A stretch of DNA of 64,000 bases from Chloroflexota bacterium (GTDB lineage Bacteria; Chloroflexota; Limnocylindria; P2-11E), in contig VBFY01000059.1 in the NCBI GenBank assembly GCA_005889405.1, positions 1 to 64,000 of the forward strand, in the 5' to 3' direction. Positions 14,405 through 19,130 of this stretch are shown in pieces (within the stretch, counting starts at the first letter, position 1; each line of letters begins with the position of its first letter). A model generated the notes under the pieces. It ran no database searches, had not been told where the DNA came from, and saw only the letters and a program-made list of their open reading frames with translations. The position numbers and the translations under genes were made by a program.

Positions 14405-15826
14405 ATGGCGCATATGAGAGTCGCAGCCGTCGCAATGATGCTCGTCTTGTCCGCGTGCGGAACGAGCGCGACGCCGACCGAAGCGTCCGCGACGCCGAGC
14501 GCTGGCACGTCGCGATACACCGCCGCGCCGACGACCGCAGCGCCGAGGCATCTTCCGGGAAGCGTTGTTCGGGTGTCGATCAATGGCGTCGAGAACCCGG
14601 CGGACGTCGCGGTCCGCGACCCGGGTCCCGGGCCGGTCACCATCGTCCTGACCTTCCCTTTCGCGGTCGATCGCGCGAGCGTCGAGAAATGGGGCATGTC
14701 TGGCCAGCCGACAAAGACATGGCTCGACGATCACACCCTTCAGCTGGTGTTCGCGGAGACCGAGCCGTCCATCGGCTTCAAGATCGCGGAAACGCTTTCG
14801 GCGAGCGGCGATGCCGTGATCGACTTCGTCGTCGTGAATGTGCCGCGGTCGTCGCACGTGATCAGCGTGTACACCGTGGCGGACCTCGCGGCAGCCGGCT
14901 TCGCCAACTTGCCACGCGCGTCCGGCTCGTGGCGCGTGCCCGCCTCCGATGGCATCACGCTCGCCCCTGACGGCAAACGCGTCCTGGTCTACGACGGGTT
15001 CGGGCCGCTCTCAGGGCAGGTCCCGGCGTTCGTCGACCTGGACACGAAGGCGACGACGTCGCTCACGCAACCACCGACGAGCGACGGATGGTTCTCGTTC
15101 GCTGATTGGATGGCCGACGGGCGGCTGGTCATGGTCGGGCGCGGGGTGTGGGTCGGCGACACGAGAGCGGCTGGCATGAAACGCGTCGCCGACGCCCAAG
15201 CCCTGGTCGGCGGCTACCCGTGGCTGGCGCTACCGGATCCGAGCGAAACGCGCATCGCGATCTGGGGCTACAACTCGGACGGGCACGTTCCAGTCGTTGA
15301 CCTCAGTGACGGCGCCGTTCAGATGCTGACCGGCCCTTTCCGACGCTGCGGCCAGGACGCCTTCGCCTCCTTCGCGTGGTCCGCCGATGGTCGCTTCCTC
15401 GCGGGCACCGATTGCGACTTCGAGGAGGGCCCGGCCAAGGCGCGCGTGCGGATCGTCGACGTCGCTGCGGATCGCACGGTGCGCACCATCGAGGGCGGGA
15501 TAATGGGCATCAGAGGACTGGCCAGTGGTGACTTCATCGTGATCCGAGACTCGGGCGAGATGGGGGCCGGCTACCGGCTGCTCGGAGTGGTAACCGGTTT
15601 CGACGGCCAGGAGCGATCGCGCTATCTCGGGCACGCGTGGTGGATGTCGGCGGACCATCACTACCTGCTGCAGTCACGGTTCCAGCCTGCCGGCGGTCCA
15701 ACGTACACGCTGTTCGATCTCGTCGCGGGAACGAACTTCGACTTCGGGGTCCCGTGCGGTGGGCGGAGCGAAGGTGGGTGTCCCTCTCCGCACTGGATGC
15801 GCGACGGACGGCTCGCGTTCTATTAG
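14405..15826 (+). CDS. Lipoprotein with beta-propeller-like (WD40/TolB-like) region
   Basis: Lipobox MMLVLSACG; repeated DG..L strands; stop overlaps serS stop by 4 bp. Confidence 0.6.
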   Translation: MAHMRVAAVAMMLVLSACGTSATPTEASATPSAGTSRYTAAPTTAAPRHLPGSVVRVSINGVENPADVAVRDPGPGPVTIVLTFPFAVDRASVEKWGMSGQPTKTWLDDHTLQLVFAETEPSIGFKIAETLSASGDAVIDFVVVNVPRSSHVISVYTVADLAAAGFANLPRASGSWRVPASDGITLAPDGKRVLVYDGFGPLSGQVPAFVDLDTKATTSLTQPPTSDGWFSFADWMADGRLVMVGRGVWVGDTRAAGMKRVADAQALVGGYPWLALPDPSETRIAIWGYNSDGHVPVVDLSDGAVQMLTGPFRRCGQDAFASFAWSADGRFLAGTDCDFEEGPAKARVRIVDVAADRTVRTIEGGIMGIRGLASGDFIVIRDSGEMGAGYRLLGVVTGFDGQERSRYLGHAWWMSADHHYLLQSRFQPAGGPTYTLFDLVAGTNFDFGVPCGGRSEGGCPSPHWMRDGRLAFY

Positions 15827-17085
15827 AGCGCGAACTCTCCCGGCGCGATCCGCTCGCGGCCGCGCATATACGGCCGGACCGCTTTCGGGATGACCACCGA
15901 TCCATCTTGCTGCTGGTAGTTCTCGATGATCGAGATCATGAGGCGCGGAAGCGCGAGGCCGGATCCGTTCAAAAGATGCGGATGCTCGATCTTGCCGCCC
16001 GGCTCGCGCCGATACCGGATGCTCGCGCGCTCCGCTTGGAACGACCCGCAGTTGCTGCATGAGGACACCTCGACCCACTCGCCGACGCCCGGTGCCCATG
16101 CCTCCACGTCGAAGCCACGGGTCGCTTGGAATGCAAGCTCGCCCGTGCACAGCTCGATCACGCGGACGGGTATCTCCAGCCGCTCGAGGACCTCGACCGC
16201 GCGATCGACGAGACCCTCGAGCTCCTTGGGCGACTCTTCGGGGTGGCAGTACACGACCATCTCGACCTTGTCGAACTGGTGGCCGCGCTTGATGCCGCGG
16301 ACGTCTCGTCCTGCGCTCATGTGCTCGCGTCGAAAGCATGCGGTGTATGCGACGTATTGAAGCGGAAACTTCTGACCGTCGAGGATCTCGTCGCCATGGA
16401 TGCCGACCAGCTGCGGCTCGGCCGTCGGGATGAGCCACAGATCGTCCTGTTCGTCGTGATATTGATTCTCGGCGAAGTGAGGGAGATGCGAGCTCGCGAC
16501 GAGTGTCTGCCGCTTCGTGAGGAACGGCGGGTAGATCTCTGTAAAACCGGCGTCGATCTTGAGGTCGAGCATCCATTGGATGAGAGCGCGCTGGAGCGCG
16601 GCGCCTGCGCCGCGCAGCAGGTAGAAACGCGAGCCGGACACTTTCGCGCCGCGCGGGATGTCGAGGATGCCGAGCTTCTCGCCGATCTCCCAGTGTGGCT
16701 TTGCCGGGAACGGAAGTTCGCGCGGCTTGTCCTCGCGGACGACCTTGTTGTCCTCGTACACAGCCCCGACCGGCGCGCCGGGATCGACCAGGTTGGGGAT
16801 GTGGAGAACGAGCTCGTCACGCTCCGATTCGAGTGGGCCGAGCTCCGCCTCGATCGCTTTGATGCGCTCGCCCACCTCGCGCATTCGCGTCTTGACCGCG
16901 TCGCTTGGCGGACCGCCCTTGCTTCCCTTGTTCCGTTCGGCGCGCAGCTGCTCGACTTCGGAGCGCAGTGCCCGACTTCGGGTGTCCAGCTCGACGATGC
17001 GACCCAGCGGTGCGTCGAAGTGGCGCAGCTCGAGCATCGCGCGGACCGCGCCAGGTTGCTCGCGGATCAGCTGGAGCGGATTCAT
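15823..17085 (-). CDS. serS: Seryl-tRNA synthetase
   Basis: MNPLQLIREQPGAVRAMLELR...TACFRREHMSAGRDVRGIKRGHQFDKVEMV...; class II motifs. Confidence 0.96.
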   Translation of the reverse strand: MNPLQLIREQPGAVRAMLELRHFDAPLGRIVELDTRSRALRSEVEQLRAERNKGSKGGPPSDAVKTRMREVGERIKAIEAELGPLESERDELVLHIPNLVDPGAPVGAVYEDNKVVREDKPRELPFPAKPHWEIGEKLGILDIPRGAKVSGSRFYLLRGAGAALQRALIQWMLDLKIDAGFTEIYPPFLTKRQTLVASSHLPHFAENQYHDEQDDLWLIPTAEPQLVGIHGDEILDGQKFPLQYVAYTACFRREHMSAGRDVRGIKRGHQFDKVEMVVYCHPEESPKELEGLVDRAVEVLERLEIPVRVIELCTGELAFQATRGFDVEAWAPGVGEWVEVSSCSNCGSFQAERASIRYRREPGGKIEHPHLLNGSGLALPRLMISIIENYQQQDGSVVIPKAVRPYMRGRERIAPGEFAL

Positions 17086-17106: not shown

Positions 17107-18360
17107 GTGTTCCACGTCGTGCTCGTCGCGTTCGAGGGACCGGACCGCTATTCGTTCGTCGGCGGTCTCGCGACGCGCATGACAGACCTCTCCGGTGCGC
17201 TGCTCGACCGCGGACACCGTGTCTATCACCTCTTCGTCGGCGACCCATCCCTGCCGACGCACGAGGAGCGCTACGAGGGTCAGCTGGTGCTCCAGCGCTG
17301 GTCGCAATGGATCAGCCGCTATCACCCGCGCGATGTGTACGACGGCGAGGACGGGAAGTACCTCGACTTCTCGCGCACCGTGCCGCCGTATCTCGCGAAC
17401 GTCGTGATCCCGGCCGCAGCCACGCGGGGCGAGCGGAGCGTGGTCTTGTTCGAGGACTGGCAGACCGCCGCCGCAGCGATCAATACCGCGACGCTCCTGT
17501 CCGCGCGCACCGATCGTTCCGCGACGCTCTTCTGGAACGCCAATAACACCTATGGCTTCGGCCGCATCGACTTTCCCCTGCTGCGCCGAGCCGCGTCGAT
17601 CACGACGATCTCACGCTACATGCGCATGGAGCTCGCGAAGGTCGACGTCGAGGCGGCCGTGCTGCCGAACGGCATCGCCGATCGGTACCTGAAGCCGCTC
17701 GCGCCTAGCGACGTGACGGCGATGCGCACGGCGTTCGGTGACCGACCCACGTTCGTGAAGGTCGCGCGATTCGACGTCGACAAGCGCTGGCTCTGGGCCA
17801 TCGACGCGATCGCCACGATGCGCGACGCCGGCATGCGGCCACGTTTCATCATGCGCGGCAGCCGTAGCCCCTACGCGGAGACCGTCGGCGATCGCATCTT
17901 CGGGCGCGGACTCACGGTCGAGCGCCTCGCGCTGCCGCAAGCTGCGTCGTCGCGCGACCTCGCGGCCGCGATCGCGACGACGAACGCCGAGGTCGTGTTC
18001 CTCGACTTCTTCATCGACGAGAAGGCGCTGCGCTCGCTCTACGCGGCGGCCGACGGCGTGCTCGCGAATTCGGAGAAGGAGCCGTTCGGACTCGTCGGTC
18101 TCGAGGTCATGGCGTCCGGCGGCATCGCGTACCTCGGCCGGACCGGAGAGGACTACGCGGTGCCGTTCGGGAACGCGATCGTGGTGCAGAGCGACGATCC
18201 GCGCGAGCTGCTCACGTCATACCTCACCCTGCGCGAGCGGCCGGAGCTCGGACGGTCGATCCGCACCGACGGGCGCGCGACCGCGAAACGCTTCGCGTGG
18301 CCGCGCATCCTCGAGGGCTACGAGTCGGTGTGGGAGACCGCCTTCGCGCTGACGAGCTAG
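17107..18360 (+). CDS. GT4-like glycosyltransferase
   Basis: GTG start; VVLVAFEGPDRYSFVGGLATRMTDL...YAAADGVLANSEKEPFGLVGLEVMASGG. Confidence 0.85.
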   Translation: MFHVVLVAFEGPDRYSFVGGLATRMTDLSGALLDRGHRVYHLFVGDPSLPTHEERYEGQLVLQRWSQWISRYHPRDVYDGEDGKYLDFSRTVPPYLANVVIPAAATRGERSVVLFEDWQTAAAAINTATLLSARTDRSATLFWNANNTYGFGRIDFPLLRRAASITTISRYMRMELAKVDVEAAVLPNGIADRYLKPLAPSDVTAMRTAFGDRPTFVKVARFDVDKRWLWAIDAIATMRDAGMRPRFIMRGSRSPYAETVGDRIFGRGLTVERLALPQAASSRDLAAAIATTNAEVVFLDFFIDEKALRSLYAAADGVLANSEKEPFGLVGLEVMASGGIAYLGRTGEDYAVPFGNAIVVQSDDPRELLTSYLTLRERPELGRSIRTDGRATAKRFAWPRILEGYESVWETAFALTS

Positions 18361-19130
18361 AGCCGCTCGAGCTGCTCGTGGCGAACGGCGCGCCGGATCG
18401 CCCACGGGTCGCCGTCCCACCGCCTTCGCGCCGCCGGATCGACCATCCAGCGCACCCGATGCACGAAGCGCGCGTGGTCGTCGAGATAACGCTGCAGCGT
18501 GGTTCGATCTTCGAAGAGCACGCGGTGCCAGAAGCGGCCGGCACGCCGCGAGCGGAACCAACCCTCGCGGACCGCGGTCGCGACCGCGTCGTCCGAGCTG
18601 CGGTCGTTCACGAGTTCCTCGCGGGAAGTCGCGATGACGCCGGCCTGACCGTACGTGCCACTCGAAGTCTTGTGCTCCGCGTACGCGAAAACGCGCGAAT
18701 CAGGCCGCGCGTCGATGAGGATGCCATGCGACCGCAGGATCCTGCGGGCTTCCTTCAGGGCATCGACCATGCCCCGTCGTGGGACGCATCAGAGCGTCCA
18801 CGACAGGATCGCGACGTCGAAGTACCCGTCGGGAAACGGAAGCTCCTGTGCGACGCCGACCTTGAACTGTACGTTCGCGGCGCCGAGCCCGCGCGCCTTC
18901 GCGCGGGCGAGGCGGATCGCCGAGGGATCAGGATCGACGCCCACGACCTCGGACGCGTAGGGGGCGCACCCAAGGGCCATGCGCCCATCGCCGCAGCCGA
19001 CGTCGATGACGCGTTTGCGCCGGACAAGGGAGACGCCACCATATTCGCGAAGCTCGCCTTCCGGTGGCGGTCGCAGCAGCGACGAGATCGCCGGCAGCAG
19101 ACGACCGACCGCACTGGTACTTGTGCCCAT
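18357..19130 (-). CDS. Class I SAM-dependent methyltransferase with in-frame TGA at 18791-18789 (selenoprotein candidate or pseudogene)
   Basis: ORFs 18789-19130 (VIDVGCGDGRMALG...FDVAILSWTL) and 18357-18770 (EARRILRSHGILIDARP) share a frame and together make one full methyltransferase. Confidence 0.75.

Follow-up and report, generated by a model that had tools for sequence, protein, structure and literature searches.

A candidate selenoprotein family of class I methyltransferases with a vicinal selenocysteine pair in Chloroflexota and several other phyla

The window, which is the entire stretch of 64,000 nucleotides of Chloroflexota DNA that was analyzed, contains a gene that almost certainly encodes a selenoprotein, judging from its sequence and that of its relatives. 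The gene is predicted to code for a class I SAM-dependent methyltransferase in which an in-frame TGA at codon 114 is read as selenocysteine (Sec, U) and is directly followed by a cysteine codon. The features of the gene are as follows:

18357..19130, minus strand: predicted selenoprotein gene, class I SAM methyltransferase, 257 codons from the ATG at 19130 to the TAG at 18357, as obtained by translation of TGA as U
18789..18791, minus strand: in-frame TGA, codon 114, putatively read as selenocysteine; TGA is found in the same column in dozens of homologues
18786..18788, minus strand: TGC, Cys115, second residue of the predicted vicinal Sec-Cys pair; TGA in the U-U relatives
18981..19010, minus strand: SAM-binding motif I, VIDVGCGDGR, residues 41-50; G45, G47, G49 and R50 are invariant in the family alignment
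18758..18774, minus strand: SECIS hairpin GGGCAU-GGUCG-AUGCCC, with further pairs to about 18756-18776; recognized by its fold and the published criteria, by covariation and by a covariance model (54.1 bits)

An earlier note on this DNA had joined two open reading frames, located in the same frame and split by the TGA, into a single methyltransferase gene. This reconstruction was confirmed by a match to the Pfam domain Methyltransf_11 that spans the TGA (residues 42-139, 78.2 bits, cut-off 21.2) and by the agreement of dozens of homologues. The coordinates given in the note were exact, although no strand was stated there; the gene is located on the minus strand. As also noted, the UGA is followed by a Cys codon, with TGA at codon 114 and TGC next. 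Read with TGA as U, the product is MGTSTSAVGR...FDVAILSWTL-U-CVPRRGMVDAL...HEQLERL-stop, with a single in-frame TGA and the local sequence L-U-C-V-P-R. The orthologues begin at the same Met as the window gene, and their frame is kept 3' of the TGA, with many synonymous differences. The domain, motif I and the modeled Rossmann fold all point to a class I SAM-dependent methyltransferase.

The UGA column and the selenocysteine machinery

The nearest named relatives are found in Chloroflexi MAGs, such as VBEZ01000122.1 with 89% identity. Orthologues from the same genus at 89% and 80% identity have TGA in the same column as the window gene, and so do dozens of relatives at 35-56% identity. A family profile was used to search 399 Chloroflexota genomes. 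It gave 54 matches at E<=1e-25, from 48 genomes, each with one to three in-frame TGA codons; no match was free of them. In the members inspected, the pair U-C, U-U or C-U usually comes after the residues F-S-W-[ST]-L. Of 55 nucleotide stretches that differ from one another, 33 encode UU, 20 UC and 2 CU. The UU and UC states interchange repeatedly on a tree of 59 proteins, with well-supported branches that force the UU state to change at least 11 times and the UC state at least 9 times. The earlier note had mentioned a Cys at this position in some homologues and had suggested an examination of the column in relatives. The column holds UGA or Cys in all family relatives inspected, the pair being U-C, U-U, C-U and, once, C-C. 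Such conservation of UGA or Cys, with homology on both sides, is the pattern by which bacterial selenoproteins are recognized, and it suggests that the window gene is one of them.

These results bear on two alternatives that the earlier note had raised and that are now excluded in practice, since the same TGA occurs in independent assemblies. A recent nonsense mutation would have left a pseudogene with a decaying downstream half, which could explain the interruption of the frame by a TGA; it also agrees with an amino-acid divergence that in close pairs is somewhat faster downstream than upstream of the TGA. However, the same TGA, often doubled, is shared by dozens of homologues, the most distant of which are about 35% identical. 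Furthermore, the downstream half has no second lesion, as the earlier note had observed, and both its domain and its hairpin are conserved. We thus consider a pseudogene extremely improbable. An error of sequencing or assembly at positions 18789-18791 could be suspected in a draft of 114 contigs (3.05 Mb, 96% complete), but the chance of this is smaller still and practically negligible. The independent assemblies with TGA at the pair include the single-contig genomes G125, G202, G220 and G419, which makes assembly error an unworkable explanation.

The genome from which the window is derived encodes SelA, SelB, in a gene that adjoins the one for SelA, SelD and a tRNA-Sec with anticodon TCA. Thus, the components of the selenocysteine machinery for which the earlier note had suggested a search were all found in a single genome. 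Among the 48 Chloroflexota carriers, SelA was not found in two, G205 and G371, both of which are fragmented drafts with SelB below the cut-off. SelA is also present in 277 of the 351 Chloroflexota genomes that lack the methyltransferase gene. The co-occurrence of the gene with SelA (p = 0.002) provides modest evidence for a selenoprotein, because SelA is common throughout the phylum, non-carriers included.

A third alternative is that UGA is translated as another amino acid by reassignment of the code, or read through unspecifically, with no involvement of selenium. An in-frame UGA is by itself silent about the residue inserted, but TGA is an ordinary stop codon in the window, where it terminates the genes for LysS, GreA, two M16 peptidases and MutY. 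The presence of the Sec machinery, the cysteine as the partner residue and the conserved SECIS also speak against this explanation, which we regard as very unlikely.

The family was also found outside Chloroflexota by contig scans and translation. The U-U pair is present in members from MAGs of ANGP1 (L069) and of Latescibacterota and Gemmatimonadetes (L070, L073-L077), the U-C pair in a member from a Thermoleophilia MAG (L079). The hairpins of these genes occupy an unchanged position and differ in their stems or loops, and both SelA and SelB are present in all eight genomes (8/8). A homologue in a Euryarchaeota MAG (L072:2737-3483) has a Cys-Cys pair and represents a natural selenium-free form. 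It has no hairpin at that place, and neither SelA nor a SelB that exceeds the cut-off was found in its genome. The distant UGA carriers thus have SelA and SelB, whereas the Cys-Cys carrier does not, which is the pattern expected for replacement between Sec and Cys.

Three further observations were made on the genomes of the carriers. The genome of the window contains a second, divergent member of the family with the reversed pair Cys-Sec (SLCU), located at C70:52438-53136 (L051:1984-2649). In another genome, two U-C members encoded on one strand are separated by about 5 kb (L189, G178:C16) and belong to separate clades of the tree. Finally, the SelD of the window's own genome (L018, G000:C99:38989-39909) is itself a UGA selenoprotein, with the in-frame UGA in ...LATCAGUGAKLG..., which we take to be the usual Sec site of SelD. 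Inspection by eye of the sequence 3' of this UGA suggested a possible hairpin, GGCGCA-GGUCC-UGCGCC, with a GGUC loop like that of the window gene; the minimum-energy fold of a longer stretch differs from this hairpin.

The SECIS hairpin

The hairpin of the window gene has 8 bp and a 5-nt loop, GGUCG, which starts 20 nt after the UGA, and a folding energy of -13.6 kcal/mol. The same stretch doubles as the coding sequence for the residues GMVDA. The published criteria for bacterial SECIS elements specify a loop of 3-9 nt with a G in the first two positions, an upper stem of 4-16 bp, a distance of 16-37 nt from the UGA to the loop and a minimum free energy of at most -7.5 (PMC13188914). The window gene conforms to these values, as do 59 of the 60 UGA-containing members inspected. 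As controls, comparable criteria were applied at the same spacing; only 4.6% of positions drawn at random from the window passed, and 3.1% of sequences that encode the same peptide with synonymous codons.

Analysis of the alignment confirmed that the stem is maintained by compensatory changes. Across 36 different sequences, 99% of the stem cells are paired, and two-sided changes were observed in 5 of the 6 stem pairs (15 cells), a value as high as which was reached in none of 500 shuffles. When the partners were slid by 1-3 positions, stem pairing fell to 27-61%. In a codon alignment of 20 Chloroflexota genes, the five GMVDA codons are 100% identical, whereas the codons of other conserved residues agree, on average, in 53% of pairwise comparisons. 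In the C-U members L051 and L186, the UGA is one codon closer and the hairpin remains in register, which gives a spacing of 17 nt, within the limits; L186 is the sole member with a weak hairpin.

A scan of the locus against Rfam gave no relevant match. Applied to the window's own genome, the covariance model of the hairpin gave good scores only for the window gene and its C-U paralogue. The weaker matches were considered as further selenoprotein genes and rejected, as they are located outside clean open frames, which suggests that the model is family-specific.

By analogy with the known bacterial mechanism, SelB carrying Sec-tRNA-Sec would bind the hairpin that lies 20 nt 3' of UGA114, selenocysteine would be inserted at this codon and translation would run on to the TAG. 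The candidate selenoprotein of the earlier note is strongly supported by the Sec machinery, by the UGA/Cys column and by a covarying SECIS hairpin.

Fold, position of the pair and possible function

The structure of the protein was modeled with AlphaFold2 from the family alignment, with Cys in place of Sec (mean pLDDT 89, pTM 0.86), and the best matches of the model in PDB are methyltransferases. In the model, the pair is located directly after strand beta-4 (residues 104-110). In the alignment made with the family profile, the pair corresponds to Cys-His in TleD and to His-His in both AtmM and RebM; in RebM, these are His140-His141 when counted along the printed alignment. In WbdD, two essential His residues surround the electrophilic methyl of SAM, and the corresponding residues in RebM and NodS are both His or both Tyr (PMC3482155). 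The alignment with the His-His of RebM and the location of the WbdD residues near the SAM methyl group suggest that the selenium is at a catalytic position. The predicted selenolate-thiol pair is most likely part of the active site.

According to this alignment, the product would present a vicinal Sec-Cys pair after beta-4, at the place where the His-His of RebM-type enzymes faces the SAM methyl group. The selenolate-thiol pair may then bind a soft acceptor, for example a metalloid or some other soft nucleophile, so that it can be methylated, or the pair may itself accept the methyl group. A tentative assignment of the enzyme as a methyltransferase of metalloids or soft nucleophiles seems possible to us, at somewhat less than even chance. 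We give slightly less credence to a more specific proposal, in which the adjacent Sec-Sec or Sec-Cys would be a substrate site that replaces the His-His of the relatives and at which a soft acceptor, either a metalloid or a chalcogen, would be bound and methylated; in some lineages, an ArsM-like selenoprotein would be the partner of the enzyme. Such a selenium-dependent chemistry of methylation is absent from the sources consulted.

The neighborhoods of the gene were compared across the carriers, and no neighbor common to all lineages was found that points to a substrate. The neighbors in the window include a glycosyltransferase, a DinB-like protein, GH57, LysS and GreA, and in close relatives the gene is surrounded by syntenic housekeeping genes (GreA, LysS, GH57, SerS). 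The neighbors are UPRTase, DUF1801 and alcohol dehydrogenase in another Chloroflexota family, and GFO/IDH/MocA, HpcH/HpaI and Ldh_2 in Latescibacterota/Gemmatimonadota. As a guide to function, none of the neighborhoods was decisive, and only the ArsM-like genes adjacent to two members were informative. In the Thermoleophilia MAG (L079), an ArsM-like gene with an in-frame UGA (LWTGUIAGAL) is located directly upstream, together with a DsrE-like gene that precedes it, and in a Chloroflexota genome (L184, G332) an ArsM-like gene with a UGA (WFAUIAGAK) is located directly downstream. That an ArsM-like selenoprotein is encoded next to the family gene in two phyla may point to methylation of metalloids or soft nucleophiles.

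Both ArsM-like genes are closest to the ArsM selenoprotein models and score below all of their cut-offs; these UGA genes (UIAGA; L079:544-2417, L184:3455-4954) may form a further unnamed group. The window's own genome has one ArsM-type gene, at C12, which contains no TGA and is unlinked to this locus. Elsewhere in the window, a frame for a lipoprotein-like beta-propeller (15227-16132, plus strand) ends at a stop codon near 15826, just short of the convergent gene for SerS, and is possibly the stop-split lipoprotein of the earlier note.

The main rival to a role in methylation of a soft acceptor is that the protein is a selenoprotein in which the pair serves as a regulatory redox switch or a thiol-oxidoreductase site, rather than as a substrate site. 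A vicinal pair of this type is able to form a diselenide or a selenenylsulfide. Redox roles are thought to apply to most known selenoproteins (PMC13188914), and a link to metalloid genes is absent in most carriers. On the other hand, the fold is that of a methyltransferase, the pair is aligned to the His-His position of the pocket, and ArsM-like selenoproteins adjoin the family gene in two phyla. We regard a redox function as a serious possibility, somewhat short of an even chance.

Comparison with known selenoproteins and methyltransferases

The window protein had no match above the cut-off in NCBIfam, with a best score of 53 bits, and other members of the family were likewise unmatched. The models for MTase/UXPK-star, the ArsM fusions and MduS gave the window protein 31-48 bits, as compared to cut-offs of 380-575. 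The table of 119 families in a review from 2026 (PMC13188914) includes no methyltransferase in which a UU, UC or CU pair is present. Judged against this table and NCBIfam, and against the families of Haft and Tolstoy 2025 and Haft and Gwadz 2023 via these alone, the family is apparently an undescribed selenoprotein family. It would apparently add one more to the 119 inventoried in 2026, with members in Chloroflexota and several other phyla whose genes are split in two by plain ORF calling, and nothing in the 2026 list corresponds to its vicinal Sec-Sec form. The natural switching between UU, UC and CU offers ready-made variants for asking about the role of each selenium atom, and the location of the pair at a known catalytic position of methyltransferases makes a role of selenium in a non-oxidoreductase fold directly testable.

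The Sec form of ArsM (NF008823) and the fusions NF041536, NF041537 and NF047649 are likewise Sec-containing class I SAM methyltransferases. However, the Sec of ArsM is located in a UxxGA motif well downstream, whereas the U-C, U-U or C-U pair of the window family is found right after beta-4. The window protein has no UxxG motif and scores 39.8 bits with NF008823 (cut-off 263) and 39 to 48 bits with the ArsM fusion models (cut-offs 460-575), including 48.4 bits with the methyltransferase/UXPK-star double selenoprotein NF047649 (cut-off 460). MduS (NF045649) resembles the family in having a methyltransferase domain with two Sec residues; unlike the window family, it has a CxxU motif (PMC13188914), and the window protein scores 31.5 bits with its model (cut-off 380).

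Fold and motifs are shared with small-molecule methyltransferases of the RebM/AtmM/TleD type (PDB 3bus, 6uv6, 5gm1), which have no selenocysteine, contain His-His or Cys-His at the pair and are 17-22% identical to the window protein. A vicinal chalcogen pair is in turn shared with HgcA, SaoL, SaoC and MbdU (CU pair), which belong to different families. Links to metals or organometals have been discussed for several of the CU-pair selenoproteins, none of which is listed as a SAM methyltransferase or as having a vicinal Sec-Sec pair (PMC13188914). Sec-containing class I methyltransferases were already known; a family whose vicinal Sec pair lies at the putative catalytic position is absent from the lists consulted.
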